A DNA stretch of 48,259 nt. It comes from a virus. The translations under genes and the position numbers were made by a program. The notes under the pieces were generated by a model. The model did no database searches. It was not told the DNA's origin and was given only the letters and a program-made list of their open reading frames with translations. Position 1 is the first letter of the stretch; every line of letters starts with the position of its first letter. Where the stretch lies: IMG/VR virus record IMGVR_UViG_3300023220_000133, positions 1-48,259 of that record. The stretch is one strand, 5' to 3'. Shown here piece by piece: positions 7,727 to 48,226 of this stretch.

Positions 7727-7744
7727 TCCAACAACGGGATATTG

Positions 7745-17667: not shown

Positions 17668-19079
17668 CAAAAGAATATCCATTTGCCTTTCAAACATTGG
17701 AATCTCGTGTGGTGCCATGGTCTGCGCAAAGACTTCTTAATATGTACGCCGAAGCAGCCTCTCCCGGTGAAAAGACAGAGCTTGCCCTCATCGGCACACC
17801 GGGTCAACAGGATTTTACTACCGTAGGCGTTGGCCCTATACGCGGTCAGCATGTTGTCGGATCGACTTGGTTTGTTATTAGCGGACCTGACGTATTCACG
17901 GTAACAGCCGCCGGAGTAGCAACGAATATCGGCACCATTGGCGGTAGTGATATCCCTATCATGGATGATAACGGAACTCAATTAGCTATTGCATCAAATG
18001 GAAGTGGATATATTGCGACCGCATCAACCGTTGTGGCAATAACAAGCTCTGAATTTATAGGGCATGCCTCTTCTTTTGGCAGCGTGGACAGTGTGACTTA
18101 TCAAGATACATTTTTCATATGGAATTCAAGCGATGTTTTGCAGTCATCATCCCCCCTTGACGGGCTTACCTATGGTGGCCTTGATATCGCTACGGCGGAT
18201 TATGACCCAGATGGGGGCGTGAGAGTATTCAGGGATCACGACCAATTGATTGTTTTTGGCAAGGATACCGTGGAGTTCTGGTATAACGCCGGGCTTGCGA
18301 CCTTCCCCTTCGCTCCGGTGGATGGCACTGCCGCCGAAGTCGGATTGAAGGCAAAGGCTTCGGTTGCTAAAGTTGACAATAGTGTGTTCTGGCTGGGATC
18401 AGACGAGCGTGGGGGCCTTACAGTTTGGCGGGCAGTTCAATATAGCCCTGTGAGAATTTCCACACACGCCATTGAGAAGAAGCTTGAGGAGGCGATAGGC
18501 ATAGAGGACGCGAGGGCTTTCTCGTACAGGGAAGAAGGTCATGCGTTTTATGTCTTAACGCTGCCCGGACATTTCACGCTTGTTTTTGATGCGGCTACCA
18601 ATTTATGGCATGAGAGAGAGACTTTTGGCAAAAAAAGCTGGGACCCCCAGAACTTTGTCAGCTTCAACGGCATTAGGTATGTGGGTGATTCATCGAGCAA
18701 TAAAATACAGAGGCTTTCCCTTGACTATCTGACTGATGCTGGCGGGACAATTGAACGCATGGCCACCTCTATTCCTATACAGTCCGGTGATGAATATTCG
18801 ATACACTGGTTTGTAAGGATTGATTTTGAATCTGGGGTAGGGCTAACTACAGGTCAAGGCAGCGATCCGCAAGCTATGCTGTCCTATTCCAAGGACGGTG
18901 GCCGCACCTTCTCGGGGGAGCGCTTTAGGTCCATCGGCAGAATAGGTCAATACTTGCACAGGACTTACTGGAGAAACAACGGCAAAGCCCGCGTTATCAT
19001 ATACAGAGTAAGGATTACAGACCCTGTCAAGGTGGCTATTATGGGCGGGTTTTCAAACATTGAGGTGGGCGCATGGTAA
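17664..19079 (+). CDS. Packaged-DNA stabilisation protein, P22 gp10-like
   Basis: 471 residues, near the 472 of P22 gp10. Starts YPFAFQTLESRVVPWSAQRL, then LNMYAE, the family's N-terminal pattern. Beta-propeller-like repeats follow (VFRDHDQLIVFGKDTVEFWY, then PVDGTAAEVGLKAKASVAKV, with WLGSDERGGLTVWR). It closes the portal channel and carries the tail spikes or needle. The C-terminus (AIMGGFSNIEVGAW) ends against the next gene with a 7-base overlap. Confidence 0.85.
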   Translation: MTKEYPFAFQTLESRVVPWSAQRLLNMYAEAASPGEKTELALIGTPGQQDFTTVGVGPIRGQHVVGSTWFVISGPDVFTVTAAGVATNIGTIGGSDIPIMDDNGTQLAIASNGSGYIATASTVVAITSSEFIGHASSFGSVDSVTYQDTFFIWNSSDVLQSSSPLDGLTYGGLDIATADYDPDGGVRVFRDHDQLIVFGKDTVEFWYNAGLATFPFAPVDGTAAEVGLKAKASVAKVDNSVFWLGSDERGGLTVWRAVQYSPVRISTHAIEKKLEEAIGIEDARAFSYREEGHAFYVLTLPGHFTLVFDAATNLWHERETFGKKSWDPQNFVSFNGIRYVGDSSSNKIQRLSLDYLTDAGGTIERMATSIPIQSGDEYSIHWFVRIDFESGVGLTTGQGSDPQAMLSYSKDGGRTFSGERFRSIGRIGQYLHRTYWRNNGKARVIIYRVRITDPVKVAIMGGFSNIEVGAW

Positions 19080-19828
19080 ACGTTGACGTTCCGCCCCCAA
19101 GCATTCAGGCCGATGTTATTCAGAAAAATGGGAAAATGTCACAGGCTTGGTATACGTTTTTTCAGACATTGAGGAAGCGAACGGGTGGTTCAACGGATAT
19201 TATAAATCAAGGAACGCCTGCGGGTATATTGGCTGATTTCTCATCTTCTAGTGTTCCTGATGGCTGGCTGGCCTGCGATGGTTCGGCGGTGTTGAGGTCA
19301 CAATATGCAAACTTATTCGCAGTTATAACTACCACATACGGGGCTGGCGACGGCTCAACAACCTTTAATTTACCAGACGCCAGGGGAAGGTCCTTCCTTG
19401 GTTGCGGGCAAGGTGCAGGACTAACTAATCGATTAGTTACAAATACCGGAGGTGTTGAAGACCACCCGCTGGCGAGCGCAGAAAATGCATCACACAATCA
19501 TACGATTACTGACCCGGACCACAGTCACGCAGTCACGGACCCTGATCACAATCACGGTACAACAGAATCAGCCCACTCGCACAATTCTGCGTCTGGCAGC
19601 TTCGTAAATAACACCGGCGGTTCAGAATATGTCAACACAGCAGGAGACAAGGGTGGCGTAAGCGCCAGTACGGCCTCCGCATCAACAGGGCTAACTATCG
19701 ATAGCGCATCAACGGGATTGTCTGTAGATAGCGCATCAACGGGAATCAGCCTTGCTAGTTCAGGCAGCGGCGATGCTCACCAGACCATGCACCCATTCCT
19801 CGTAGTGTGCAAAATTATAAAGACTTGA
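19073..19828 (+). CDS. Tail collar-domain fibre with HxH repeats
   Basis: 251 residues. Residues about 55-120 (PAGILADFSSSSVPDGWLAC, then DGS, GSTTFNLPDARGRSFLG) form a phage tail-collar domain as in microcystin-dependent proteins and fibre knobs. Downstream is a His-rich stretch with HNH, HSH, HNH and HSH spaced 10-12 residues apart. This is the kind of HxH set that binds iron in trimeric T4-like fibre tips. Then come three copies of SASTG(I/L)-type repeats. It probably forms a trimeric tail needle or fibre tip (inference). Confidence 0.78.
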   Translation: MVNVDVPPPSIQADVIQKNGKMSQAWYTFFQTLRKRTGGSTDIINQGTPAGILADFSSSSVPDGWLACDGSAVLRSQYANLFAVITTTYGAGDGSTTFNLPDARGRSFLGCGQGAGLTNRLVTNTGGVEDHPLASAENASHNHTITDPDHSHAVTDPDHNHGTTESAHSHNSASGSFVNNTGGSEYVNTAGDKGGVSASTASASTGLTIDSASTGLSVDSASTGISLASSGSGDAHQTMHPFLVVCKIIKT

Positions 19829-19830
19829 TA

Positions 19831-20331
19831 ATGTGTAGGAATGAATGTAATATGGTCGACAGTCAATCTTTAAACCTCAATGAAAATAGGGCTATGATAA
19901 GAGAGGCTACATTATCCGATATTCCAAATCTAATTGAAAGAGGCCACGATTTTGCGGCATCTCTCCCGTACCCTATTGTGTCAGACAGTGAGTCGATTGG
20001 AGAAACCCTTGAGAAGCTGATAGCATCCCCTGATGCCGTTGTGTTTGTCAATGAAGAGGCCACGGCTGGTATAGCGGGCCTGACGTATCCCTTCTTTTTC
20101 GGAAAAGACACCAAGACCAGCCAAGAGTTATTTTGGTGGGTTGACGAGGATATTCGAGGCGGAGGTATTGGCATGGAGCTATTTAACGCGTTTGAGCAAT
20201 GGTCAAAAGATCAGGGTGTTGACGTGATAACCATGGTCTGCCTTGAAGACAAAAACAAGGACATGATAAGCGGTCTTTATTTACACAAGGGCTACATACC
20301 CACAGAATCATCATATGCGAGGGTTTTATAA
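19831..20331 (+). CDS. GNAT-family acetyltransferase-like protein
   Basis: Up to 166 residues; the recognisable domain begins at the ATG at 19894 (MIREATLSDIPNLIERGHDF). GNAT features are the acceptor strand AGIAGLTYPFFF, the acetyl-CoA loop-like DIRGGGIGMELFNAFEQWSK, and ENPSA-like VCLEDKNKDMISGLYLHKGY. The pyrophosphate loop Q/RxxGxG/A is present as RGGGIG. Such genes sit beside tail genes in many phages; their substrates are unknown. Start uncertain: 19831, 19852 and 19894 are all possible. Confidence 0.8.
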   Translation: MCRNECNMVDSQSLNLNENRAMIREATLSDIPNLIERGHDFAASLPYPIVSDSESIGETLEKLIASPDAVVFVNEEATAGIAGLTYPFFFGKDTKTSQELFWWVDEDIRGGGIGMELFNAFEQWSKDQGVDVITMVCLEDKNKDMISGLYLHKGYIPTESSYARVL

Positions 20332-21245
20332 TGGCAATAGCAACAGGTACGGCCATCTTAGCCGGTTCGGTATTGGCCGCTGGTGGTGCAGTAGCAAGCG
20401 GGGCCTTGTCATCTAAAGCGGCAAAGAAGGCGTCGGCGGCTCAAGTTGAATCTGCGCAATATGCCGCTGATTTAGGACAGAAGCAATACGAACAAACCAG
20501 AGAGGACTTGACCCCTTGGCGCACAACGGGTGCCGCTGCCCTCAGCCAACTTGCGACTTTGTACGGTCTTGATACGTCATCCCAATCTATTAATTTAACG
20601 CAAGGCGAAGACGGCACTTACGGCGCTATGGACCCTAACGATCCAGCCATGCTTGCAGACAAAGGTTATTTTAAAGGCTCTGGCGTTCGCGGAGAAGAGC
20701 GGTTTAACTTAAAACAAGAGGCTCGTGGCATCCGTTCCGAAAGAGAACGCGCCGCATCCGAGACATCACAAGAACAAGGTTCGCCCTTGGATTCATTTTA
20801 TAAGTCACCCGGCTATCAGTTCCGCCAAGATGAAGGCCGAAAGGCTATAGAAAAATCTGCGGCATCAAAAGGTTTGCTGAGATCAGGCGGGACACTAAAG
20901 GCTCTGGAGAGACATTCTCAAGGCGTCGCCAGTGAAGAGTATAACAATTATACAGCCAGACTTATGCAGCTTGCAACAGGTGGAGCATCAGCCACAGTGC
21001 AAACCGGGCAATTTGGTGCCGCACAAGCTGGCCAAGCTGGTAACGCTGCTATGGCTGCCGGTGATGCGCGAGCGAGTGGTTATTTGCGGTCGGCTAATGC
21101 TTGGGGAGGAGCTATGCAGGGTGTTGGTCAAGCAGTGGGTACTGGTCTGGGTTATTTGAGCTATCAACAGCAGCCACAAACTCCCGGCGCGACAGGTGGT
21201 GCATGGACTAATCCCAATATTGGCCCAATGAGAATAGGTGGTTAG
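20331..21245 (+). CDS. Putative DNA ejection / internal virion protein 1
   Basis: 304 residues. The N-terminus is a Gly/Ala-rich hydrophobic segment (AILAGSVLAAGGAVASGALS) able to enter membrane. It is followed by a helical region with QYEQTREDLTPWRTTG, and SPGYQFRQDEGRKAIEKSAA, then SKGLLRSGGTLKALERHSQG, a pattern widespread in podovirus ejection proteins. The tail is Ala/Gln/Gly-rich. First of three consecutive genes in the position of P22 genes 7, 20 and 16. ATG overlaps the preceding stop. Confidence 0.78.
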   Translation: MAIATGTAILAGSVLAAGGAVASGALSSKAAKKASAAQVESAQYAADLGQKQYEQTREDLTPWRTTGAAALSQLATLYGLDTSSQSINLTQGEDGTYGAMDPNDPAMLADKGYFKGSGVRGEERFNLKQEARGIRSERERAASETSQEQGSPLDSFYKSPGYQFRQDEGRKAIEKSAASKGLLRSGGTLKALERHSQGVASEEYNNYTARLMQLATGGASATVQTGQFGAAQAGQAGNAAMAAGDARASGYLRSANAWGGAMQGVGQAVGTGLGYLSYQQQPQTPGATGGAWTNPNIGPMRIGG

Positions 21246-35540: not shown

Positions 35541-36238
35541 GATCTGTCTCCATAATTATCGTGTTTATCCTCGAAAGGGCTTGCATCGGTGTCTTGAAGT
35601 TGAGATTTTCGCTTTTCTTTGTGGGCGTCCATACTGTTCTTCTCTTTGTGCCATTCAGGGAATCGCTTCGCAACATCGTTGTACCAAAACCTGAACCCTT
35701 CGCTCTGCCATAATGATTGTAATTGAGCAACGTCTTCAACGGCGTCAATGTCGCGATGAAAACCTAGTGCCTGTTGTTCAAGTTTTGTCTTCGGAACCTC
35801 GTTCTTTTTGGCTTCATGCTTTTGCGTCTGCTCTTGGACATATTTATTGTCATCAAACTTGCCTTCGAACACATCAGAGTTAAACCCTAGCAAGGCAAGC
35901 CCCTTTGTAACGCCATCCGTTGTGGCCTTTTTGAGTGCGTCGGCGTCGGCCTTCTTTGCCTGTCCTTTAAGGAATAAATCACAACCACCAAACTGAGGGC
36001 CGCAGACATTATCCCTCGACCCATGCCAGAGGGTGACCTTCATTGCTACCGTGCCGTTCCCTGGGTAGCTAGGTTCTGCCGTCCAGCCCCACCCTATACC
36101 GACAGGGCCGAATAGCGCTGTAGCGGCTTTAATCTGCTTCTGAGCGTCGATTGCTGTGAACTTGCGCCCGAATGAAACTTCTTTTGTGTCGTCTGGGTTG
36201 GTTTTGCACACCTTATCCCATATATCCATGTTACTCAT
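35537..36238 (-). CDS. Rad52-like single-strand annealing protein
   Basis: 233 residues. Conserved elements: EVSFGRKFTAIDAQKQIKAA, FGPVGIGWGW, VTLWHG, then the Rad52/Sak-type DADALKKATTDGVTKGLALL, GFNSDVFEGKFDDNKYV. In Rad52-superfamily phage annealases the conserved KATTDA..KAL..LG...D.Y.GKFDD end follows a beta sheet with W..E, as here. It anneals complementary ssDNA during phage recombination. The C-terminal 80 residues are charged and probably flexible. Exact subgroup not assigned. Confidence 0.8.
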   Translation of the reverse strand: MSNMDIWDKVCKTNPDDTKEVSFGRKFTAIDAQKQIKAATALFGPVGIGWGWTAEPSYPGNGTVAMKVTLWHGSRDNVCGPQFGGCDLFLKGQAKKADADALKKATTDGVTKGLALLGFNSDVFEGKFDDNKYVQEQTQKHEAKKNEVPKTKLEQQALGFHRDIDAVEDVAQLQSLWQSEGFRFWYNDVAKRFPEWHKEKNSMDAHKEKRKSQLQDTDASPFEDKHDNYGDRS

Positions 36239-36423
36239 TATATTTCCCTTATCTGCGTGAGTTTATCTATGAACCAGTCAAGCCTGTCCTTGGGTATCTC
36301 AATGCTATCTACGTGCTCCAGCATGACGAGTCCAGACGAGAAGTCTGCGCGAACGGCATATTCAACGCCGCTGCCATCCGCGTATTTATCTTCAAATTCT
36401 ATCTTTGTTGGTTTATCGGTCAT
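36238..36423 (-). CDS. Hypothetical small protein, paired with 36420-36623
   Basis: 61 residues, MTDKPTKIEFEDKYADGSGV. Ends with IEIPKDRLDWFIDKLTQIRE. Its C-terminal half has the same strand-P-K-helix pattern as the gene upstream (SFPKETIPAIIEALTAVG). The pair may be a diverged duplication. Confidence 0.6.
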   Translation of the reverse strand: MTDKPTKIEFEDKYADGSGVEYAVRADFSSGLVMLEHVDSIEIPKDRLDWFIDKLTQIREI

Positions 36424-36623
36424 TTCTCATTCCCTACTGCTGTTAGTGCTTCAATGATTGCCGGTATTGTCTCTTTTGGAAAAGATAGCTGAGCATCCTT
36501 TTGCCCCATTCTGATATCACCCTCAAAAGTGCCGAGAACACCATTGTATTTATATATTCTTATAGTTTTGGTGCCGCTCGTCTCAATCGTATAGACAAGT
36601 TCTGTTTTCACTGTCTCACTCAT
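36420..36623 (-). CDS. Hypothetical small protein, paired with 36238-36423
   Basis: 67 residues, MSETVKTELVYTIETSGTKT. Beta-rich, then AQLSFPKETIPAIIEALTAV. Four-base overlap with the downstream partner. The fold resembles its neighbour; function unknown. Confidence 0.6.
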   Translation of the reverse strand: MSETVKTELVYTIETSGTKTIRIYKYNGVLGTFEGDIRMGQKDAQLSFPKETIPAIIEALTAVGNEK

Positions 36624-36641
36624 TGTCTCTCTCCATTCTAT

Positions 36642-36797
36642 TTACTTGGTATGCAGCGGGACAATAAACGATCCCACAAACCAGAGCGTCGCGTTAATTG
36701 TGGCAAATTCTCCGCCGTGCCACATTATGACAAAACCAAGAATCATCATGCCTACTCTCTTCGTATAATATGCGCTACGTGTCCTCTCATCATTCAT
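36642..36797 (-). CDS. Small membrane protein
   Basis: 51 residues, MNDERTRSAYYTKRVGMMIL, then GFVIMWHGGEFATINATLWF, VGSFIVPLHTK. Two short hydrophobic helices. GAGGAAAGAG precedes the ATG at 36797. Unknown function. Confidence 0.55.
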   Translation of the reverse strand: MNDERTRSAYYTKRVGMMILGFVIMWHGGEFATINATLWFVGSFIVPLHTK

Positions 36798-36823
36798 CGC
36801 TCTTTCCTCTCATGTTGTAGTGA

Positions 36824-37111
36824 TTACTTGGTGGGTTTCTTAAACCCTTTAGCGTTTCCAAACCTGCCCTTAGCTAGTTCCAGCCTCCTCCGCGCATTGT
36901 TGACCTCTCTTTCGCAGTAGGCCATTGAACAAGCCTTTGCGTCATCAAAATCATCGAACCACTGATGAGCCTCAGACCATTTAGCCTCCCTTCTTTCCTT
37001 AAGAACGCTATCTACCTCAAGAAAAACACTTTTATCGGTTTCGCGAATAACCCCTAGGGCCTCTATGGGTTCGCCCCACGCTGCCTTTTTAACGCGATAC
37101 ATTATCTTCAT
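36824..37111 (-). CDS. Hypothetical protein
   Basis: 95 residues from ATG 37111 (GGAGA upstream; the in-frame ATG at 37123 is part of that ribosome binding site). MKIMYRVKKAAWGEPIEALG, then charged helices (CEREVNNARRRLELAKGRFG). The N-terminal half has a beta-barrel-like pattern (VIRETDKSVFLEV). Not recognised. Confidence 0.65.
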   Translation of the reverse strand: MKIMYRVKKAAWGEPIEALGVIRETDKSVFLEVDSVLKERREAKWSEAHQWFDDFDDAKACSMAYCEREVNNARRRLELAKGRFGNAKGFKKPTK

Positions 37112-37168
37112 CTCAATCTCCATTAGTTACAGTTATTACTTTTCACACAGCCTCGCCCATCAATACTC

Positions 37169-37744
37169 TTAACGAAGGCTCGCGCCAGTCTGTTTCGGCC
37201 CCGTCTTGCCTCTTGGCATTTCAACGGCTTTCTCAATACTCATTCTCTTCATTCTCAGCACCAATGATGGGCGAGATATCCCGGCAACTTTGGCCAATTC
37301 GTTCATTGTGTAAACTTTGCCTTTGTATGTAACGCCGCATTTATTTCGCCATGTATCTTTGCACTTCTCGAAACCCCGCGCCGTATTACAGGCATGACAC
37401 GACGCAACTAAATTCGACAGATTGTTGTTAGACTTATCATCGTCAACGTGATCAATGTCCAAAACGTCCCAGCCAACCACCTCGTCGCACCAGTGACAGG
37501 AAAACGGACCCGCGCCCTGAGCGTCGTAATAAACTTTCCTGTGCTCATATACATAGCCATTTTTTGTCGCCAAAGGATGGTCTTCATCATAAATGACAAC
37601 ATAGCCCGCGCTATGATTTATCTTTAGCGCTCTTGTCATGATCTTATCTGTAGTGCCATTGCGCCATTTACGCATGTAGTGCATCAAGCATAATCCAGTT
37701 GTGGGTGTAGAGTCCCTATGACAATCATCGACTGAGCATTGCAT
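37169..37744 (-). CDS. Free-standing HNH homing-type endonuclease
   Basis: 191 residues. N-terminal CSVDDC, CLMHY module (possible zinc finger). The HNH core contains NGYVYEHRKVYYDAQGAGPF, SCHWCDEVV, LDIDHVDDDKSNNNLSNLVA, SCHACNTARG, with zinc CxxC pairs and catalytic DH..N..N. A C-terminal NUMOD-like helix-turn-helix follows (YTMNELAKVAGISRPSLVLR). The gene sits in a non-coding pocket with strong leader hairpins upstream, as mobile endonucleases often do. Probably a late insertion into the operon. Confidence 0.85.
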   Translation of the reverse strand: MQCSVDDCHRDSTPTTGLCLMHYMRKWRNGTTDKIMTRALKINHSAGYVVIYDEDHPLATKNGYVYEHRKVYYDAQGAGPFSCHWCDEVVGWDVLDIDHVDDDKSNNNLSNLVASCHACNTARGFEKCKDTWRNKCGVTYKGKVYTMNELAKVAGISRPSLVLRMKRMSIEKAVEMPRGKTGPKQTGASLR

Positions 37745-37761
37745 TGTATAATCTCTTTTAT

Positions 37762-37821
37762 GGAAAGCTTGCGTTGTGAATAAGGAGCATGTATTGTCCT
37801 CTTAGATAAGGGAAGCTTTCC
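37762..37821 (-). promoter_or_regulatory. Leader stem upstream of the HNH gene
   Basis: On the minus strand GGAAAGCTT (37821-37813) pairs perfectly with AAGCTTTCC (37770-37762), 18 bases upstream of the ATG at 37744. It encloses 42 bases containing an AGGAGC-like sequence. Could hold back translation of early readthrough mRNA. Confidence 0.45.
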
Positions 37822-37838
37822 GGTAACCCTTCTCTCAT

Positions 37839-37868
37839 GGCCTCGGATGTTTCTAGCATCGCGAGGCC
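37839..37868 (-). promoter_or_regulatory. Strong hairpin between regulator and HNH gene
   Basis: On the minus strand GGCCTCG, one bulged base, GATG, loop CTAGAAA, CATC, CGAGGCC: 11 pairs. No U-run follows, so it is not a standard terminator. It may stabilise the upstream mRNA end or mark the boundary of the inserted HNH cassette. Confidence 0.5.
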
Positions 37869-37889
37869 CAACCTTTATTGCACACCCTG

Positions 37890-38108
37890 TTAGTTATTGC
37901 AACATCTTTTCATGGCAACATCCAAATTAAAATCAAGAACCTCTGATAGCCTGCAAGCCAGATCGTAGCTTATGCCTTTGCGCCCGTTCTCAATCTCCCA
38001 TACGTAGCTTTTTGAGGTATTGGCTTTTTCAGCAACGGATTCCAGGGAATACCCAAAAACCTTGCGACGGGATTTAATGAACTTTCCCAATTTAATTTTG
38101 TCGATCAT
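37890..38108 (-). CDS. Xre/Cro-type helix-turn-helix regulator
   Basis: 72 residues: MIDKIKLGKFIKSRRKVFGY, SLESVAEKANTSKSYVWEIE, NGRKGISYDLACRLSEVLDF. The HTH_3 fold is complete (helix 2 SLESVAEKAN, recognition helix SKSYVWEIENG). Start at 38108 has GGGAG upstream and overlaps the preceding stop by 4 bases. No dimerisation or cleavage domain is attached, so it is a Cro-like rather than a CI-like protein. Possible target: the divergent promoters at 39976-40066. Confidence 0.88.
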   Translation of the reverse strand: MIDKIKLGKFIKSRRKVFGYSLESVAEKANTSKSYVWEIENGRKGISYDLACRLSEVLDFNLDVAMKRCCNN

Positions 38109-38284
38109 TTCTTCTTCTCCCTTAACCATGTTGCTGTATTGTCGCAGCCTATTGCTATTGCTTCCAGTAGCTGTACGTCTGTAACATCACCGGGTAGCGC
38201 GTCTATTGAAGCCAGGACAAACTCTCCCCATTTATCTTGAATTGTCTCCAGTGCGCTCTCAATCTTCTCCTGTTTGTTCATCAT
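38105..38284 (-). CDS. Hypothetical small protein
   Basis: 59 residues, MMNKQEKIESALETIQDKWG, then ASIDALPGDVTDVQLLEAIA. Helical. AGGAGAGAATG gives the start; the second ATG at 38281 is equally possible. Coupled to the regulator downstream. Unknown function. Confidence 0.6.
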   Translation of the reverse strand: MMNKQEKIESALETIQDKWGEFVLASIDALPGDVTDVQLLEAIAIGCDNTATWLREKKK

Positions 38285-38486
38285 TCTCTCCTATGGTATG
38301 CTCTTGTAGCTCTTGCCTTTCGAGCGAATTTAGTTTATCTTTAGCGTTGCGAAAGGTAGGCAAATCAATCACGCCATTCCCGTATAAAAACAGAATTGAC
38401 CTATTACACCTCTCGTACTCTGAATGCCCGGTCCAATCCGCGCAATAATTTGAAGGCCCCCATTTTCTGCTATAGTCATCAATCAT
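38259..38486 (-). CDS. Hypothetical protein
   Basis: 75 residues from ATG 38486 (AGGGG upstream): MIDDYSRKWGPSNYCADWTG, then RCNRSILFLYGNGVIDLPTF. The upstream extension present in the open frame lies within another gene and is not used. Two Cys. Not recognised. Confidence 0.6.
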   Translation of the reverse strand: MIDDYSRKWGPSNYCADWTGHSEYERCNRSILFLYGNGVIDLPTFRNAKDKLNSLERQELQEHTIGENDEQTGED

Positions 38487-38685
38487 CTGTAGACCCCTTT
38501 CTATTTTGATATTCACATATGATATTACCCGAACGGGTGCGGTGACATTGTGCGCGAGGGCCGTCACATGTATACAAGGCAAACCACTCATCATCTTTCA
38601 TCGATTCATGCACCCCCGCAACCCCTGCGGCCCAACTGAGCATATTGGCAGGAAATCCTCGCAATGTTACTGTAGGAGGTGTCAT
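38479..38685 (-). CDS. Hypothetical protein
   Basis: 68 residues from ATG 38685 with a strong GGGAGG upstream: MTPPTVTLRGFPANMLSWAA, then ESMKDDEWFALYTCDGPRAQ, CHRTRSGNIICEY. Three Cys and one His in the C-terminal half may bind metal. Start overlaps the preceding stop. Confidence 0.6.
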   Translation of the reverse strand: MTPPTVTLRGFPANMLSWAAGVAGVHESMKDDEWFALYTCDGPRAQCHRTRSGNIICEYQNRKGSTDD

Positions 38686-38798
38686 AGCAGCCTCCCAAAA
38701 AGTACCCACATGAAGAGCGCTAATATCACAAAGCCCTCCCAGTAATCCCAGCCGTCAAGCTTCTTGGCTTGGTTGATTATTAATTGAATATGGTTCAT
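38682..38798 (-). CDS. Very small membrane protein
   Basis: 38 residues, MNHIQLIINQAKKLDGWDYW, then one membrane helix (EGFVILALFMWVLFGRLL). ATGA overlaps with both neighbours support it despite its size. Confidence 0.55.
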   Translation of the reverse strand: MNHIQLIINQAKKLDGWDYWEGFVILALFMWVLFGRLL

Positions 38799-38989
38799 GA
38801 TTTAGGTGACCTTCCCGGACCCCATGTCGCCCATATAAGGGTCACTATACAAACCCCACCCACCGCCGCCAGCGTTGCCAGCTGGTTGCTCTCAGCAATG
38901 CGAAGTGAAGACGATGCCAGATAAAGAACCCCTAAACCCCACAAGGCACTTTCAATTAAATGTGATATTCTGCTATATACTAAAGTCAT
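38795..38989 (-). CDS. Small membrane protein
   Basis: 64 residues from ATG 38989 (AGGAGA upstream). Two hydrophobic stretches: LIESALWGLGVLYLASSSL and LATLAAVGGVCIVTLIWATW. Overlaps the gene that follows by 4 bases. Unknown function. Confidence 0.6.
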   Translation of the reverse strand: MTLVYSRISHLIESALWGLGVLYLASSSLRIAESNQLATLAAVGGVCIVTLIWATWGPGRSPKS

Positions 38990-38999
38990 AGAATTTCTC

Positions 39000-39395
39000 C
39001 TATCTAATGGTTTTGTGACGCGGTGGGATGCCATTCATCATGTCGGCGTAGCTCTCTTGCATCATGGTCAGCGTGGCTATGTGTGAGGCGTTGCCGGGGC
39101 TTTCCTCAACCAGATCATTCATGATGTTTATACCCTTTTCCATCGATACACGCGAGGCCCTTTTCCTTTGATCGAAGGTCATGTTCTCAATGCCCATGTT
39201 AAGGACAGTTTCATCATCGGCGGTGTGTTGAAATCTTGGCGACTTCAACAGGCTTTTGACGATTGCCTTGCGCTTCTCGGTGTGTGGCTTTGTTTTGTCC
39301 GGGATTGTACGCCTGTTGTAAATATATAAAGAGATACCCAATCCAACAACGGTGCCCATAGAGCCGCCGATAATTATTCCATCAATCAATGTCAT
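39000..39395 (-). CDS. Membrane-anchored hypothetical protein
   Basis: 131 residues. MTLIDGIIIGGSMGTVVGLG, then ISLYIY is a membrane anchor, followed by a basic helical cytoplasmic part (RRTIPDKTKPHTEKRKAIVK). The end is His/Pro-rich (NGIPPRHKTIR). Overlaps the upstream gene by 4 bases. Confidence 0.65.
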   Translation of the reverse strand: MTLIDGIIIGGSMGTVVGLGISLYIYNRRTIPDKTKPHTEKRKAIVKSLLKSPRFQHTADDETVLNMGIENMTFDQRKRASRVSMEKGINIMNDLVEESPGNASHIATLTMMQESYADMMNGIPPRHKTIR

Positions 39396-39676
39396 TCTTC
39401 CTCTCCATATTCCTCGTCAAGCGCCACCGTAATTCTATATTTGGCAGATAAGACGGTTTCATATATTTCCGTGACGCCATCCTCCATGTCTGAGGGGTCG
39501 ATGTCACACTCGTGGTCTATTCTTTCAAAGGCCAATGCATACCGTTGACCAAGGGCTGACACTTCTTTCTGCATGTCACGGTATAATGTTTCCAGCGCCT
39601 CAAAGTCATCGTTGCGCCCGTCATGGTGACGTAGATGCTCGCGGCCTGTCCTTGTGTTTTCCGATAAATCCATCAT
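39392..39676 (-). CDS. Hypothetical acidic helical protein
   Basis: 94 residues, MMDLSENTRTGREHLRHHDG, then ETLYRDMQKEVSALGQRYAL, predicted coiled coil, with an acidic tail (EEYGEEE). Start preceded by GGAGAGAC. No family recognised. Confidence 0.65.
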   Translation of the reverse strand: MMDLSENTRTGREHLRHHDGRNDDFEALETLYRDMQKEVSALGQRYALAFERIDHECDIDPSDMEDGVTEIYETVLSAKYRITVALDEEYGEEE

Positions 39677-39695
39677 GTCTCTCCTTTACCTGTGG

Positions 39696-39953
39696 TTAGC
39701 CTTCAAACCCATACGACTCGCCGTCTGAATAATACCATTGGCCGACATCTTTCCCATTGACCACCTTGACTACATAGATAGATTCGTAGTTTCTTGAATT
39801 TCGGCGGGCATATGCGAGGGCCGATGATTTGTTTTCGTATTCCCTGTAGAAAATCCAATCATCCCTCTCGGGGTCAGCCCAATCAACACGGAACCCATTA
39901 ACAATGTGGCCGTTATTCCATGATGCGTGTCCGCTCTGTGTTTCAACATTCAT
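39696..39953 (-). CDS. First gene of the leftward operon, hypothetical
   Basis: 85 residues, MNVETQSGHASWNNGHIVNG, then WIFYREYENKSSALAYARRN, SIYVVKVVNGKDVGQWYYSD. Beta-alpha-beta pattern with many aromatic residues. GGAGAGAAG precedes the ATG. Being first behind a strong promoter, it is probably made early and could be a host-takeover or regulatory protein (inference from position). Confidence 0.65.
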   Translation of the reverse strand: MNVETQSGHASWNNGHIVNGFRVDWADPERDDWIFYREYENKSSALAYARRNSRNYESIYVVKVVNGKDVGQWYYSDGESYGFEG

Positions 39954-39975
39954 CTTCTCTCTCCTTATTTACCTC

Positions 39976-40003
39976 ACAATACCACACCCTATCATAGTGT
40001 CAA
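39976..40003 (-). promoter_or_regulatory. Leftward early promoter
   Basis: On the minus strand TTGACA at 40003-39998, 16 bases, TATTGT at 39981-39976; start expected near 39969. It shares both hexamers and the spacer length with the rightward promoter at 40039, and the 3' end of both spacers is GGTG-rich. Drives the recombination operon. Confidence 0.75.
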
Positions 40004-40038
40004 GCATTATTATTTTAAGGCTTAACCACATTATGTTA

Positions 40039-40066
40039 TTGACACGGTGTTTATATGGTGTATTGT
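40039..40066 (+). promoter_or_regulatory. Rightward early promoter
   Basis: TTGACA at 40039-40044, 16 bases, TATTGT at 40061-40066; start expected near 40073, a few bases before the tRNA-like element. Thirty-five bases of AT-rich DNA separate it from the leftward promoter, leaving room for operators. Confidence 0.75.
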
Positions 40067-40077
40067 AATGGTGTTGG

Positions 40078-40210
40078 TCGAGAGGTGTAGCTCAGTATGG
40101 TTAGAGCGCATCAGGAGATGGTCGGTGGCCTAGTACAGGATTGATAAGGTGGTGAATTCCAGCCTTTGAGATTACGGCCCGTCGTTGGTTCAAGTCCAAC
40201 CGCCTCTCGG
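40078..40210 (+). tRNA. tRNA-like RNA with an enlarged central region (possible tRNA pseudogene)
   Basis: Canonical parts: acceptor strand AGAGGTG (40081-40087) with CGCCTCT (40201-40207), extendable by three more pairs outward; T8 and A9; D arm GCTC/GAGC with the GG-containing loop AGTATGGTTA; T arm GTTGG-TTCAAGT-CCAAC at 40184-40200. Between D and T arms lie 76 bases (40108-40183) instead of about 23, and I cannot find a 5-bp stem with a 7-base loop and U33. No CCA is encoded. The base next to the acceptor is C73 paired with G-1, as in tRNA-His. First product of the rightward operon; a decayed tRNA, a tRNA-derived regulator or a decoy. Confidence 0.6.
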
Positions 40211-40233
40211 CTGATAATATAAAAGGAAAAGAC

Positions 40234-40503
40234 ATGACTAGAAGAGAACAGATAGCAAAAAAGATCAGTGCCAAGCGACGCGGTATTGTGGTGAAACTTT
40301 CGGACCACATCAAGCAATCCAAAAGCACGAAGGGCAAGAAGGTCACATATCAAATGATTGCCGACGTTGTAGGCTGCGGAAAGAACCACGTTGCCCACGG
40401 TTTCAGGGTTGATAAGACCATGACTGACAAGATGCTTGTAGAGACATTATACGCCGTTGAATACATAACCGGTGAAAACATAGACCATATACTGGAGGGA
40501 TAA
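40234..40503 (+). CDS. Basic putative DNA-binding protein
   Basis: 89 residues, MTRREQIAKKISAKRRGIVV, then KVTYQMIADVVGCGKNHVAH, ending MLVETLYAVEYITGENIDHI. The middle has the spacing of a helix-turn-helix (YQMIADVVG and CGKNHVAHGFR). First protein gene behind the rightward early promoter, with AAAAGGAAAAG upstream. A Cro-like role at the divergent promoters is possible. Confidence 0.6.
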   Translation: MTRREQIAKKISAKRRGIVVKLSDHIKQSKSTKGKKVTYQMIADVVGCGKNHVAHGFRVDKTMTDKMLVETLYAVEYITGENIDHILEG

Positions 40504-40505
40504 AC

Positions 40506-40793
40506 ATGACACGTAAAATTACCAGAGAGGATTTAGTTACAGCCTTTGCGCGGACAGAGTTACACCGCGATCAAATACAGGGGTTTACCTATGCTAATAA
40601 AGAGGAGGGGTACGACCAACATGTAGCCCGAGATTTACTCTGTGAACATAGCAGTCAAGCCTTCTGGATCGCCCGCGATGATGGGACCGTCTCCAATTAT
40701 GATAAGCTTCACGGCGAGATGTTGATTGCCATTGAAGAACGGCAAATGCAGCTTGTAGCCAATGAGTTAAACTCTTTATTACAGGAGCAATAA
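40506..40793 (+). CDS. Hypothetical protein
   Basis: 95 residues, MTRKITREDLVTAFARTELH, then LLCEHSSQAFWIARDDGTVS, EEL-like helical C-terminus. It lies 3 bases after the preceding gene. No family recognised. Confidence 0.65.
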   Translation: MTRKITREDLVTAFARTELHRDQIQGFTYANKEEGYDQHVARDLLCEHSSQAFWIARDDGTVSNYDKLHGEMLIAIEERQMQLVANELNSLLQEQ

Positions 40794-40794
40794 A

Positions 40795-41004
40795 ATGGAC
40801 ATACTCACACTAAAGGAAATACAGGCCATTAACCCGCCCCTGTACCTCACAAACGTTAGACGCATGGCACAGGTAACTTACACTGCCAGACAAGCGGAAT
40901 CCGACGCCATCAAAAACAAGGCTCGCATTGCAAAGTGGGGACCATTGAAGGCATCACTGCGGACACTCAGGCAGGCAACCACTAACGTGTTGAGGTGGGC
41001 ATGA
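40795..41004 (+). CDS. Hypothetical basic protein
   Basis: 69 residues, MDILTLKEIQAINPPLYLTN, then VRRMAQVTYTARQAESDAIK, basic helical end (RTLRQATTNVLRW). Start follows the previous stop by one base. The TGA overlaps the ATG of the nuclease gene. Confidence 0.6.
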   Translation: MDILTLKEIQAINPPLYLTNVRRMAQVTYTARQAESDAIKNKARIAKWGPLKASLRTLRQATTNVLRWA

Positions 41005-41363
41005 AAAATAAATCAGCATCACAAAACGGACGCCGCAACCGCCAGAAGGGCCAGGAGTTCGAGCGCGAGGTGGTAGCCATGTTAGAAGAGAGTGCCGTTG
41101 CCGCAGAGCGCATCAAGGGCAGCGGATATCAGGCTAAGGACCACAATGATATACGGATAACAGAGAAGTCTCTCACGGGGCTTGAAATCGAATGCAAGCG
41201 CAAATCAAAAGGTTGGGCAGGATTATATAAACTCATGGAGCAAAAGGACGTTTCTATCGTTGCTCTCCGGGCCGACAATAAGCCCGCGCTGGCTGTCATA
41301 GAATTCAAATTTCTTTGCAGTCTTTTATACGCATTTAAAGATGAAATGAACGGTCTGGAATAG
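41001..41363 (+). CDS. PD-(D/E)XK Holliday-junction-resolvase-like nuclease
   Basis: 120 residues from ATG 41001. RRNRQKGQEFEREVVAMLEE, then AAERIKGSGYQAKDHNDIRI, GLEIECKRKSKGWAGLYKLM. The conserved E of the first helix, the ND of the D strand and the ExK-type EIECKRK are the active-site residues of archaeal Hjc-like and phage resolvases. Expected to cut branched DNA during replication or packaging. Start overlaps the preceding TGA. Confidence 0.78.
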   Translation: MKNKSASQNGRRNRQKGQEFEREVVAMLEESAVAAERIKGSGYQAKDHNDIRITEKSLTGLEIECKRKSKGWAGLYKLMEQKDVSIVALRADNKPALAVIEFKFLCSLLYAFKDEMNGLE

Positions 41364-41387
41364 ACATAATAGAAACATAAGGAGCGG

Positions 41388-41507
41388 ATGATGAACGAAG
41401 AATTGGAAGCGTGGGCAAAAACAAACGGCATTGACAATCTGGAAAAAGAGGAATACGGCGGCAACCACTTAGATTTATTCCCTGACACAATCGAGGGTGA
41501 ATTATGA
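41388..41507 (+). CDS. Very small acidic protein
   Basis: 39 residues, MMNEELEAWAKTNGIDNLEK, ending DLFPDTIEGEL. AAGGAGCGG precedes the ATG at 41388, and its TGA overlaps the next ATG. Function unknown. Confidence 0.55.
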   Translation: MMNEELEAWAKTNGIDNLEKEEYGGNHLDLFPDTIEGEL

Positions 41508-41764
41508 CCAGACCATTAACACAAACAACCAAGTGTAAGCACGACTTTACCCCATGGGAGAGAATAAGTCCCGAAGTTAGGGGAGAGCCTGCCACATGGA
41601 GCGCCACAAGAAAATGTAAAGACTGTGATGTCGAGGAAGTTTCATGCAGGGAGATTAACTGGGTAAACATTGATTATTCGCTCAATCACATGCGCCATAA
41701 CCATGTAGACACAGTACCGATGATCATAGCACACCCAATATTATGGAAGGCAACAGCACAATGA
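41504..41764 (+). CDS. Small putative zinc-binding protein
   Basis: 86 residues, MTRPLTQTTKCKHDFTPWER, then RKCKDCDVEEVSCREINWVN. C11, H13 with C39 and C42 could hold one zinc, as in small phage proteins beginning C.H.F..W. The rest is soluble. Coupled by overlaps on both sides. Confidence 0.6.
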   Translation: MTRPLTQTTKCKHDFTPWERISPEVRGEPATWSATRKCKDCDVEEVSCREINWVNIDYSLNHMRHNHVDTVPMIIAHPILWKATAQ

Positions 41765-42183
41765 AAACATCAGATGAAATACTGAGGGAGTTTTTCCGAG
41801 AATTGAGCCGATCCGTCGGCAATTGTGAGGGTTTGCACGTTGCTGAATGCGTTCCAGCGCTGAATGATGAGTTGCTGACCGCAGGCTACCACATCACACC
41901 CATAGAGCCAACAGAGAGATTCCAAGAGGGTTTCAAAGCCGGTGAATGCCATGCCACATCATTCTTCATCAACAGGGAGCCAACAGAGGCACAGATAGAG
42001 GCGGCATCAGCTAAATTAGTTAATTTCTTGTGTGGAACATCGTACAGAAAAAAGCTGCCCATGTTTTCGACGTGGGGGATAAAGCCCTCTCATAAAAGTA
42101 TTAACGATGTTACCGCCGAAAAGGTTGCTAAAAAAATACTCACAGCCGCCCTCACAGGTAATACTAGACAAGCTGATAGATAG
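41761..42183 (+). CDS. Hypothetical protein
   Basis: 140 residues from ATG 41761, which overlaps the preceding TGA; the open frame begins 18 bases earlier without a better site. MKTSDEILREFFRELSRSVG, then GFKAGECHATSFFINREPTE, AQIEAASAKLVNFL. The last part has a P.E..I.AA..... helix common to many phage proteins of unknown function. A promoter overlaps its last codons. Confidence 0.65.
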   Translation: MKTSDEILREFFRELSRSVGNCEGLHVAECVPALNDELLTAGYHITPIEPTERFQEGFKAGECHATSFFINREPTEAQIEAASAKLVNFLCGTSYRKKLPMFSTWGIKPSHKSINDVTAEKVAKKILTAALTGNTRQADR

Positions 42184-42193
42184 GGTATATATT
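42165..42193 (+). promoter_or_regulatory. Promoter for the 90-nt RNA
   Basis: TAGACA at 42165-42170, 17 bases, TATATT at 42188-42193. Seven bases later is the G at 42200 that opens the paired GGGGCG, so transcript start and structure start would coincide. Confidence 0.55.
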
Positions 42194-42199
42194 AAATAT

Positions 42200-42290
42200 G
42201 GGGCGCTACTCTTGTAGGGCCTTGCCGGTGAATACCTTTTTAGGATGCAACGCTGGCAGATTGCAGGACGCTCCTTGGCCTGCCGCCCCA
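42200..42290 (+). ncRNA. Putative 90-nt structured RNA or leader
   Basis: GGGGCG (42200-42205) closes with CGCCCC (42284-42289). Inside: CTAC-TCTT-GTAG (42206-42217), TGCAA (42246-42250) with TTGCA (42261-42265), and alternatively GCAGG (42263-42267) with CCTGC (42279-42283). The last two cannot form together, a switch-like feature. No open frame with a ribosome binding site lies within it. No terminator follows, so the RNA is either processed or acts as the 5' leader of the helicase genes. I do not match it to a known riboswitch or tRNA. Confidence 0.45.
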
Positions 42291-42350
42291 CATCCTTTCA
42301 TAGGGTAAAATCAAGGAGGGATGTTAAACACTGAAACAAGGATATTTCAC

Positions 42351-42560
42351 ATGACAGACGCTACCACCAGACCTATTAAATACAAATATTATTGCAGCTT
42401 TTCTTGCAAGGGAGGTTTTGGTTTTGTTGTCGTAGACCTAGATGGCATTATCAGTACAAGCGAAGACATCCAAGTAGTTCGCGAGGGGATCAAGGAAAAC
42501 CAAAATCTTGATGTTCTCCCCATAATCATATCCTTTCAGCTATTGGATAGTAAGACATGA
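42351..42560 (+). CDS. Hypothetical small protein
   Basis: 69 residues from ATG 42351 (AAGGATATTTCAC upstream). The in-frame ATG at 42321 has AGGAGGG directly against it, too close to work well. MTDATTRPIKYKYYCSFSCK, then GGFGFVVVDLDGIISTSEDI, IQVVREGIKENQNL. Beta-alpha pattern. First protein after the 90-nt RNA. Not recognised. Confidence 0.6.
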   Translation: MTDATTRPIKYKYYCSFSCKGGFGFVVVDLDGIISTSEDIQVVREGIKENQNLDVLPIIISFQLLDSKT

Positions 42561-42742
42561 GTATGAGGTGGGGCATCGAGGATCAGGTTGAAGCCGCCGA
42601 AAGGGTAGCTCTTCTTGAGGATTTAGTGGTTCATTTATGGAGAAACACATCATATCCATTAGCCACAATGACGGCAGACGAGAGAGAACTGTTTGATAGC
42701 ATCCTGCGTGCTGCCGATCCTAAGGCGGAGAATGACTCATGA
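42557..42742 (+). CDS. Hypothetical small helical protein
   Basis: 61 residues, MSMRWGIEDQVEAAERVALL, then TADERELFDSILRAADPKAE. Predicted helical. Starts with ATGA overlap and ends overlapping the helicase start, so it is tightly coupled to it. Could be a helicase accessory protein (position only). Confidence 0.6.
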   Translation: MSMRWGIEDQVEAAERVALLEDLVVHLWRNTSYPLATMTADERELFDSILRAADPKAENDS

Positions 42743-44103
42743 GTGATCTATTCAATCTTGAGGCAGAGCAGGCATTGCTTGGCGCTGTCTTCAATAATAC
42801 CGAGTGCCTTGATCATATTGGGTATCTAAAGCCCGAGCATTTCATGGAACCCGTGCATGGTGATATATATCAAGATTGCGTAGGACTTCACAGAGAAGGT
42901 AAGTCGGCAAATCCTGTATTCATCTACAACAAGTATAAACATGATCCGCGCTTAAGTGAAGAGGAAGTTGCTGGCGGAGCGAAGGATTATATTGTCAGAC
43001 TTCATGCTAGTGCAGCTACACTTATCAATTCCCCTGAATTCGCAGCCACTATCTATGATTTATATCTCAGAAGGTGCATTGCTAATGATTGCGAAACTTT
43101 GGCCGGTATGGTTTATGATCTTGATGTTGATCCAGTCGACGAACTCACTCAAATGTACAATGCCATTGTAGACGGGGCAGAGATTAAATCAACCAACATT
43201 CGCACCCTATCCCAAATCATGGACACAACACTTGCGGGCCTTGAGGATATCAGGCACAACGGCGGCATGTTGGGGTTAAAGACAGGACTTGCAGACCTCG
43301 ATAGGATGATAGGGGGCTTACGATCTAAGCTCTACCTGATAGGCGGTCGCCCTGGTATGGGTAAAAGCGCCTTAATGCTCTTCCTTGCTCACAGCACAGC
43401 CTTACAGGTTCCTACTCTGGTATTCTCTCTTGAGATGCCCGGCGAGGAAAACGCAACACGCGCCATTGCTATGCAGTCAGCTATTGGAAACATCGGCACT
43501 ACGTCTGTTTTGAACTATCAGGATATTGATAACAACAATCTGTGCAAAACCCAGTATGAGCACATGGTAGAACATGCAGGTAATATTAAAAACATACAGC
43601 TAAGAATATGCGACGACGCCAACATGACGGTGCAGAAAATCAGGCGAATATGCAAAAGCATCAAATCAAAGTATGGTCTTGGCGCGGTGTATATAGATTA
43701 TCTCCAGCTATTGGCCCATGAAGACCGGCACAAAGGCATGTATGCACAGGTCACAGAGAACTCAGGAGCCTTGAAGCGCTTACAGAGAGAGTTAGACGTG
43801 CCTATGGTGGTCCTGTCGCAGCTTTCTAGGGGGGTAGAGCAGCGAGACGACAAGCGCCCGTTCATGTCTGACCTAAAAGAGAGTGGTGCCATTGAGCAGG
43901 ACGCAGACGTTATCCTGTTCCCATTCAGGGAAGAGTATTATCTTGAACGAGAAGAAAGCCCGGAAAATAAACAGAGACTTATAGACATTGCCAACAGCAT
44001 TGAGATCATCGTAGCCAAGCAAAGGGCAGGGCCTACAGGTTCATTCGTTGCTGGCTGCAATATTGGTGCTAATTCTTTCTGGACAAAGGAGAGGCATCAA
44101 TGA
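42739..44103 (+). CDS. DnaB-type replicative helicase
   Basis: 454 residues, near the usual DnaB length. N-terminal domain: EAEQALLGAVFNNTECLDHI, KPEHFMEPVHGDIYQ. RecA-like domain from about residue 180: TGLADLDRMIGGLRSKLYLI, Walker A GGRPGMGKSALM, then SLEMPGEENATRAIAMQSAI, Walker B AVYIDYLQLL, motif 4 SQLSRGVEQRDDKRPFMSDL, KESGAIEQDADVILF, and the closing R..GPTG. It unwinds DNA at the phage fork as a hexamer. The O-like initiator follows with a 4-base overlap. Confidence 0.95.
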   Translation: MSDLFNLEAEQALLGAVFNNTECLDHIGYLKPEHFMEPVHGDIYQDCVGLHREGKSANPVFIYNKYKHDPRLSEEEVAGGAKDYIVRLHASAATLINSPEFAATIYDLYLRRCIANDCETLAGMVYDLDVDPVDELTQMYNAIVDGAEIKSTNIRTLSQIMDTTLAGLEDIRHNGGMLGLKTGLADLDRMIGGLRSKLYLIGGRPGMGKSALMLFLAHSTALQVPTLVFSLEMPGEENATRAIAMQSAIGNIGTTSVLNYQDIDNNNLCKTQYEHMVEHAGNIKNIQLRICDDANMTVQKIRRICKSIKSKYGLGAVYIDYLQLLAHEDRHKGMYAQVTENSGALKRLQRELDVPMVVLSQLSRGVEQRDDKRPFMSDLKESGAIEQDADVILFPFREEYYLEREESPENKQRLIDIANSIEIIVAKQRAGPTGSFVAGCNIGANSFWTKERHQ

Positions 44104-44891
44104 CAGGATGGATAAAACTTCATAGAGCCGCTATAGATCACTGGTGCGCGTCGGAGCCTGAGTTTCTGGCAGTGTGGATTAGGTTACTCTGTGAGGCTAA
44201 CCACAAGGCCGTTAAAACCATAATGAACGGTGCGCCAGTTAATATAGATAGGGGCCAATTAGTCTATGGCAGAAAGGTATTTTCCGAGCGGTCTGGTGTC
44301 AGTATCTCTAAATTAAGGCGTATCATTCGTGTGTTAACCGATGAGGGCATGATTGACCAACTAAAAACCAACAAATACTCAGTTATTACAATACTTAACT
44401 ATGATTTGTATCAGGGTGTTGACCAGCCAAAAACCAGCAGATCGCCAGCAGATCGCCAGCAGATGACCACATCTAAAGAATGTAAAGAAGTTAAAGAAAA
44501 GAAAGAGCCTAAAGATAGCCTTGAAGGTTTCGATGAATTTTACGATGCTTACGCCTACAAGAAAAACAGAGGACAGGCAAAAAAGGCTTGGGCAAAGATA
44601 CCTCTTGCAGACCATTCTTTAGTTATTGAAGGGGCAAATACGGCGGCAAGAATAGGTGGAGAGTTTAGGCCATATCCTGCAACATGGTTAAATGCGGAGG
44701 GCTGGCTCGACGAGCATGAAGGCCAATTAGTAAATGGTGAACTCCGAACGCTTTGGGTTCATGCAATAGAAATTCACAGGGAGAAAAAAAGATGGCCAAT
44801 AAATCCAAATTATTACTTCATGGGGAAACTATCAGAATGCCCCGACGATTTGAGAAGCGCCAATGCAGACCTATTTCCATCGGTGAATTAG
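44100..44891 (+). CDS. Replication initiator, O-like (winged helix)
   Basis: 263 residues. N-terminal winged-helix region: WIKLHRAAIDHWCASEPEFL, RGQLVYGRKVFSERSGVSIS, KLRRIIRVLTDEGMIDQLKT. This is the pattern of phage replisome-organiser and lambda O-type proteins. The middle (residues about 112-140) is encoded by iteron-like repeats and a purine-rich tract. The C-terminus (YDAYAYKKNRGQAKKAWAKI, YPATWLNAEGWLDEH) resembles the DnaB-contacting end of O/DnaD-like proteins. It probably binds the origin within its own gene and recruits the helicase. Confidence 0.8.
   Translation: MTGWIKLHRAAIDHWCASEPEFLAVWIRLLCEANHKAVKTIMNGAPVNIDRGQLVYGRKVFSERSGVSISKLRRIIRVLTDEGMIDQLKTNKYSVITILNYDLYQGVDQPKTSRSPADRQQMTTSKECKEVKEKKEPKDSLEGFDEFYDAYAYKKNRGQAKKAWAKIPLADHSLVIEGANTAARIGGEFRPYPATWLNAEGWLDEHEGQLVNGELRTLWVHAIEIHREKKRWPINPNYYFMGKLSECPDDLRSANADLFPSVN
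44434..44520 (+). other. Candidate replication origin: 11-bp iterons plus A-rich tract
   Basis: CCAGCAGATCG at 44434-44444 and 44445-44455, with a third copy CCAGCAGATGA at 44456-44466, followed by a purine-rich, A-rich tract at 44471-44520. It lies inside the O-like gene, as the lambda origin does in gene O. Three tandem units encode the low-complexity SRSPADRQQ region of the protein. Confidence 0.6.
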
Positions 44892-47930: not shown

Positions 47931-48226
47931 AATGAAATGCCTTCTCTTATTATGGTTTCAAGTTTACCAACGACATCACGAAGATTTTTGATTTCTTTCG
48001 CTGCCTCGATGCAAACAGGAAATGAACTATGGACCGAGTGAAATATTTCATTGTTAAATGATCCACTACCCTGACCGTGTGGAGGGACAAAGAAAAACTG
48101 CTTCGTGCCGTCCGCTTTTCTTTCATCGCCCATAAGGAAGCCATGCCCTGTGAATAATTCATAAGGGGTAAATCTATCAAGTTTTATTAAAATATCCTCG
48201 GCGCTCGTCTTATTTGTTGAGGTCAT
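47927..48226 (-). CDS. Hypothetical protein
   Basis: 99 residues, MTSTNKTSAEDILIKLDRFT, then PYELFTGHGFLMGDERKADG, FFVPPHGQGSGSFNNE, helical end. Its ATG lies 14 bases inside the gene that crosses the contig junction. Not recognised. Confidence 0.65.
   Translation of the reverse strand: MTSTNKTSAEDILIKLDRFTPYELFTGHGFLMGDERKADGTKQFFFVPPHGQGSGSFNNEIFHSVHSSFPVCIEAAKEIKNLRDVVGKLETIIREGISL

Follow-up and report, generated by a model that had tools for sequence, protein, structure and literature searches.

Whether a tRNA-like gene that has lost its decoding arm and stands at the head of a phage early operon is a tRNA in decay or an RNA with another use is the question raised by the element described here. 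The window, which is the whole stretch of 48,259 bases that was analysed, is a bacterial-virus contig from IMG/VR and carries a P22-like set of head and tail genes, among them those coding for TerL (6009-7511), a portal protein (7742-9703), a capsid-like protein (12289-13197), the head-closure protein Hc3 (17664-19079) and a P22 gp7-like ejection protein (20331-21245). A GNAT acetyltransferase-like gene (19807-20331) was also found inside this structural operon, flanked by a tail-collar gene and the gp7-like gene. An HTH regulator gene lies at 37890-38129, and two promoter-like sites, both recognised by consensus match only, stand back to back in divergent orientation, with nearly identical hexamers and 16-nt spacers (TTGACAC...TATTGT). 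The site of the leftward operon (TTGACA-16-TATTGT; 39976..40003, minus strand) has 10/12 matches and a TG before its -10, and that of the rightward operon (TTGACA-16-TATTGT; 40039..40066, plus strand) also has 10/12 matches and implies a start at about 40073, around 7 nt upstream of the tRNA-like element. Judged from their sequence, these twin promoters suggest that the left and right early operons are controlled jointly. A search of 39600-40600 gave no terminator-like site. The element is alone in the genome, between this consensus promoter and the first early gene, an ORF of 89 aa with no family match (40234..40503, plus strand) that starts 25 nt downstream of it behind a Shine-Dalgarno-like AAGGA (40223..40227, plus strand) and is followed by a RusA-like gene, DnaB and a DnaD-like gene. 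The original prediction had the element as the first thing transcribed by the rightward early promoter; a promoter-like site does lie just upstream, but it is a promoter by consensus match only.

The tRNA body of the element is complete. It extends from the acceptor strand to a C that stands where discriminator 73 would be (40081..40208, plus strand; tail GGC, with no CCA encoded), and the full RF00005 model (1-71) matched exactly this interval with 37.2 bits against a gathering score of 29, which makes it a member of the family (E=2.6e-4 over the 48,259-base window and E=2.7e-6 over 501 bases). This was the sole Rfam match in the window. The acceptor strands AGAGGTG (40081..40087) and CGCCTCT (40201..40207) form 7/7 pairs, one of them G-U, and two more outer pairs are possible (40079:40209 and 40080:40208); the MFE fold makes a nine-pair stem. 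The D arm, GCTC-AGTATGGTTA-GAGC (40090..40107, plus strand, from sequence and Rfam), has 4/4 pairs with A14, G15, G18G19 and A21 present, and the T arm, GTTGG-TTCAAGT-CCAAC (40184..40200, plus strand, from Rfam and the stem count), has 5/5. The remaining core residues that were checked, T8, G26 and C48, are also as expected, as is the TTCAAGT loop. All 16 stem pairs are therefore intact, and the uncompensated body damage by which a tRNA pseudogene is recognised is absent, the loss of the anticodon arm being the sole damage. The acceptor, D and T arms had been described as canonical, and these data agree; the element is real and odd, and the earlier description of it is correct.

The decoding arm, on the other hand, could not be placed by any approach. 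Positions 26 to 48 span 76 nt, against about 22 in a class I tRNA. The region is overlong as had been claimed, but the 76 nt reported as an insert are the whole of this stretch and the excess is about 54 nt. ARAGORN with default settings reported no tRNA at the element and, when introns were allowed, forced a Ser(tga) whose anticodon arm pairs poorly and whose 'intron' has 51 nt. We also removed any single segment and scored the resulting arm (5 pairs, a 7-nt loop, U33, a purine at 37 and a 4-5-nt variable loop). No single excision restored an anticodon arm in the window element (score 6.0, p=0.57 of 200 shuffled inserts), whereas in the positive control 64 of the 74 body-intact archaeal elements among the matches listed passed at p<=0.02. 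In addition, a free search of the 76 nt gave no anticodon-like hairpin anywhere (p=0.996). The absence of a proper anticodon arm, noticed by eye in the original prediction, was thus confirmed in three ways: the 5-bp arm with a 7-nt loop and U33 that a decoding tRNA has is lacking. A model with a normal anticodon arm, which that prediction had named as its refutation, came out of none of the three. The element cannot read the genetic code, because its decoding arm has been replaced by other RNA.

What stands in that place is a stub followed by an expanded variable region. The folds put a hairpin of 4 pairs with a 4-nt loop and no U33, CATC-AGGA-GATG, at 40109..40120 (plus strand), and a similar hairpin starting at position 27 was obtained in 103 of 5000 shuffles. 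The variable region has 63 nt (40121..40183, plus strand) and, in the MFE fold only, a possible stem between GGCC at 40127-40130 and GGCC at 40176-40179 with an inner hairpin at 40146-40166. None of this is more stable than shuffled sequence (z=+0.78 for the 26-48 region, z=-0.95 for the arm and z=-1.7 for the inner hairpin). The region starts with GTCGGTGG (40121..40128, plus strand), a 7/8 match to GTCGTTGG at 40181-40188, where the variable loop ends and the T stem starts, and this direct repeat is a possible trace of a duplication or insertion.

The repeat leads to the most serious competitor of the reading we prefer, namely a recently broken tRNA gene in which the anticodon loop was deleted, around 60 nt were gained in the variable region and the body is too young to have decayed. 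We regard this as a close rival, at well under an even chance. The repeat encloses 60 nt of the insert, the pattern expected from a duplication, and the insert has neither structure nor conservation to speak for a use; the element has no sibling in the records searched and gives no excision product either. However, a repeat as good was found in 256 of 5000 shuffles, so it is weakly unexpected, and two separate events would be needed, one shortening the anticodon arm and one enlarging the variable region, because removing the 60 nt still leaves no anticodon. Furthermore, the decay would have to be very young, since every stem pair and all the checked core residues are intact.

With GGCC/GGCC pairing at its base, the extra RNA of the window element can be represented as a variable arm, which makes the element similar to class II tRNAs (Ser, Leu and bacterial Tyr). 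A class II variable arm has up to about 24 nt, whereas here the variable region has 63 nt, the D arm is class I-like (GTAGCTCAG) and a 12-nt stub takes the place of the anticodon arm; a class II tRNA was rejected on the absent anticodon arm and the length of the variable region. Other known RNAs were rejected as well. A group I or other catalytic intron has no counterpart in the Rfam results, in which RF00005 alone matched with E up to 5, and neither ARAGORN nor Rfam gave a match to tmRNA. A tmRNA-like minigene can be spelled in the insert (AGGAG-ATG-GTC-GGT-GGC-CTA-GTA-CAG-GAT-TGA-TAA), with a wrong start spacing and no support for its translation.

We then looked at how common such genes are. 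A pattern made of a tRNA D arm and, 55-85 nt away, a T arm, with an unconstrained acceptor, matched at least 120 stretches in IMG/VR and at least 118 in GTDB genomes, mostly archaeal, both being samples. Among the matches listed, 45 of the 130 viral rows (129 plus the window) overlapped an ordinary ARAGORN tRNA, which left 85; as many as 57 of these have a 7/7 acceptor, a feature that the pattern does not demand, and 21 were dropped for failing an acceptor of at least 6/7 and a T stem of 5/5. The 64 body-intact viral elements kept from those matches include near-duplicates (e.g. L023/L038 and L078/L086). Phage contigs, then, hold many body-intact tRNA-like genes with long inserts, and chromosomes rarely carry the pattern: 2 of 398 genomes in one phylum, one of these (L269) looking like a normal tRNA with a chance second T loop, and 4 of 198 in another. 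Among the matches listed, the CCA missing from the window element is encoded by 9 of the 64, and a pair at -1:73 is frequent in various forms across them, so the G:C pair that the window element has there, as in tRNA-His, was not used as evidence.

This set bears directly on the view that the window holds an intron-containing tRNA, of the Lak type (PMC6784885, in the part of that report available to us) or of the archaeal type, from which the insert is removed to give a decoding tRNA. Besides the archaeal elements of the control, 29 of the 64 body-intact viral elements and 14 of 20 bacterial ones behave in this way in the excision test, again among the matches listed, and the insert of the intron-like elements often lies after position 28 or 29. 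The window element belongs to the other 35 of the 64 among those matches, which fall below the excision threshold, a few of them borderline (p 0.03-0.08); its failure in the excision and hairpin searches, together with the absence of any Rfam intron family, makes an intron very unlikely. A splicing system carried by the phage is unlikely as well, and so is an attachment site, because neither an RNA ligase nor an integrase was found among the ORFs scanned, which did not include every small ORF.

The intron-like elements recall those of the Lak megaphages, whose tRNA genes carry enigmatic introns (Devoto et al. 2019, PMC6784885); as far as the available part of that paper goes, the likeness holds for the 29 viral elements counted above among the matches listed. 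The Lak intron tRNAs are, like the window element, phage-borne, with an intact body and a long insert between the D and T arms that has no Rfam class. They differ in having an assignable anticodon plus an intron and in belonging to a large set of tRNAs, whereas the window element stands alone and no excision restores it (PMC6784885, same part). A nested tRNA is described there within one Lak phage tRNA intron (PMC6784885), with which L050, L115, L052, L074 and L023 may be compared: their long middle has a second T-arm-like hairpin (TTCGA/TTCAA loop, 4-5-bp stem), as if it were a nested tRNA piece.

Two kinds of insert recurred in the intron-like matches. L045, L066, L024, L049, L078, L093, L097, L123 and L131 (viral) and L187, L249 and L250 (Lachnospiraceae) have an insert of around 40-55 nt after position 28 or 29, made of a hairpin and then ACAGCAA or a close variant, whose excision gives a perfect anticodon arm in most of them; these possibly are an unrecognised class of short tRNA introns. 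L028, L046, L063 and L081 (viral), L170, L232 and L254 (Flavobacterium), L246 (Fluviicola) and L161 and L242 (cyanobacteria) have theirs after position 28, with a long helix and the end TTACT(T) or TTAT, and its excision also yields a perfect anticodon arm.

An unusual integration target, one of the uses the original prediction had offered, found no support: no integrase is among the scanned ORFs, and the tRNA copy is whole, where an attP carries the 3' part of a tRNA. The related idea of a complementing tRNA, as in tRNA-dependent lysogeny, does no better. In that system functional isoacceptors are paired with an integrase (PMC10865867, in the part available), and the window shares with it a phage tRNA gene and a link to temperate life and lacks the isoacceptor function and any integrase found. 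What speaks for these proposals is that the phage has both a tRNA-like sequence and an HTH regulator gene, but complementation would require an anticodon, and we consider both hardly credible.

The search for relatives of the element returned no sibling in IMG/VR, phage or plasmid records. BLAST of phage and plasmid records gave short tRNA pieces only, or nothing, and IMG/VR pattern scans with the same acceptor and D arm found 0 cases with a normal middle and 0 with a long one. No close relative of the window contig was found either. The first early gene led to no relatives, DnaB led to 4 loci (30-33% identity) and Hc3 to 17 (32-42% identity). An RF00005 search of the 21 records behind these loci gave two matches. 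One (L273) is an ordinary 72-nt tRNA of 70.5 bits, and the other (L274:1501-1613) is a lone tRNA-like element of 31.1 bits directly after an HTH regulator gene, on a contig (L019; record G620) related to the window by Hc3 only (36%). The sequences of the two elements are unlike and the acceptor of L274 is poor; the arrangement of the window, a lone tRNA-like element, may recur in that contig. The window insert has no similarity to other inserts beyond chance (best p 0.03 in about 67 comparisons among the matches listed). In the open-access literature we found no description of phage tRNA-like genes that stand alone and have their anticodon arm replaced, which is weak evidence of absence.

Other phages do keep such genes, and this weighs against a recent break. 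Some of the 35 elements below the excision threshold form conserved families, one of which carries a module, GGGAGTCATGNCCTGA. This module was found in 34 stretches, and 16 of these, several of them near-identical, have tRNA-like surroundings by reading (L103, L278, L279, L280, L281, L282, L285, L286, L289, L290, L291, L293, L294, L297, L298 and L304; L279 is on the same contig as L274). They fall into the groups L103, L278/L290, L289, L281/L286/L291, L282/L297, L294, L280/L293, L274/L279, L285/L304 and L298. The tRNA-like bodies carry the module either in a variable region that is enlarged or on an anticodon stem that is extended. Six of the elements (L103, L278, L289, L281, L282 and L294) have two-sided pair changes at 5/7 acceptor and 3/5 T-stem positions, counted in these two stems only, because L278 and L289 were wrongly segmented in the D and extended anticodon stems. 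These changes show selection at the RNA level on the six elements, i.e. to body-intact tRNA-like genes without an anticodon arm that are kept with compensatory changes. In L280/L293 a short hairpin, TCACC-CGCAA-GGTGA, precedes the module in an enlarged variable region, the same topology as in the window. The module elements thus have in common with the window an intact body without a usable anticodon, and differ from it by the module and by insert similarity, both absent from the window element. We rejected its assignment as a GGGAGTCATG-module tRNA-like RNA because GGGAGTCATGNCCTGA is absent from the element even with up to 3 mismatches allowed; the one match elsewhere in the window (48136-48151) is at chance level.

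Taken with the intact body, the comparable elements in phages make a tRNA-shaped RNA with another use slightly more likely than a freshly broken tRNA gene. Both readings are among those offered in the original prediction, whose interpretation is partly supported. The reading that we tentatively prefer, at somewhat less than an even chance, is a non-decoding, tRNA-scaffolded leader RNA that is probably cut out by tRNA-processing enzymes, the body being what RNase P and the 3' tRNA nucleases would read. In such a scheme the rightward early mRNA would be transcribed with the element as its 5' leader, host RNase P would recognise the tRNA body and cut near 40080/40081, and a tRNA 3' nuclease would cut near 40208. 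The early mRNA could thereby gain a defined 5' end around 25 nt before its first start codon, and the tRNA-shaped piece would be released as a stable small RNA. Our bet is that its primary role would be the processing and stability of the early leader, with the enlarged region free to evolve a binding function. The intact body, the lack of an anticodon, the placement and the comparable phage elements, some of them selected RNAs, speak for a leader RNA. Against it, the window insert has no structure beyond chance, no conservation, no shared module and no sibling, no CCA is encoded, and the position before an ORF is not enriched among lone elements (10 of 26 among the matches listed, versus 500 of 1130 random positions).

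Phage leaders processed by RNase P have precedents. The P4 CI RNA and the P1/P7 C4 RNA are such leaders; both serve in immunity as antisense RNAs, and neither is homologous to tRNA. The window element resembles them as a structured RNA heading an operon, with an RNase P cut that we propose here. They act as antisense, and the window insert is not unusually complementary to either the early or the leftward transcripts. An immunity RNA of the P4 CI or P1 C4 type was rejected for this reason, its duplex energies being no better than those of 60 shuffled inserts (34 and 60 of the 60 were as good, in a comparison that covered 40210-44200 and 36001-40060).

A tRNA body expressed early could also serve as a decoy, as the original prediction had suggested, or as an inhibitor, binding a tRNA-directed host factor such as an anticodon nuclease, an aminoacyl-tRNA synthetase, a modification enzyme or RNase P. 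Lacking an anticodon loop, such a decoy could itself be neither cut nor used. In its favour, the position behind the promoter-like site implies early expression, and the element joins an intact body to the loss of the loop at which anticodon nucleases cut. These nucleases, though, usually recognise in part the anticodon arm itself, and the insert has no conserved feature that we detected; we consider a decoy improbable.

The leader reading can be extended to the elements of other phages. The window element would then be one of a set of unrecognised and widespread phage RNAs that use the tRNA body as a scaffold for processing and stability, carry exchangeable domains in place of the anticodon arm, head early operons as leaders that the tRNA enzymes of the host cut out, and have targets in the host or the phage. 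This broader proposal is in our view doubtful. Because such genes are overlooked or wrongly labelled by standard tRNA finders, an entire kind of phage RNA may have gone unseen, and the interest of the window element lies mainly in the set to which it points. If the body is indeed a natural scaffold, a phage could in a simple way, relying on host enzymes only, make a small RNA that is stable and give its mRNA a defined end, and the element would allow a direct test of the use of non-decoding tRNA-like genes by phages.

Lastly, several lone elements have CI-type or HTH repressors nearby (L138, L069, L104, L142 and L274), a group picked by eye with no background count, in which L138 and L142 are outside the set of 64 and the acceptor of L274 is weak. 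L138 precedes a MuA-like transposase gene. L104 (8045-8153), L113 and L141, all from phages, agree in how the variable loop and T stem end, ACT(C/T)AGCGCCGG, and L104 and L113 additionally have GTTGGTG as acceptor and two motifs, AGTCAATT and CCTGTRAGTAGACT, in common, the hairpin around AGTCAATT being altered yet paired. L069 stands alone between regulator genes and RecE/RecT-like genes; it has a CCA after the residue at position 73, and a long, almost perfect hairpin (z=-7.6) takes the place of its anticodon loop.
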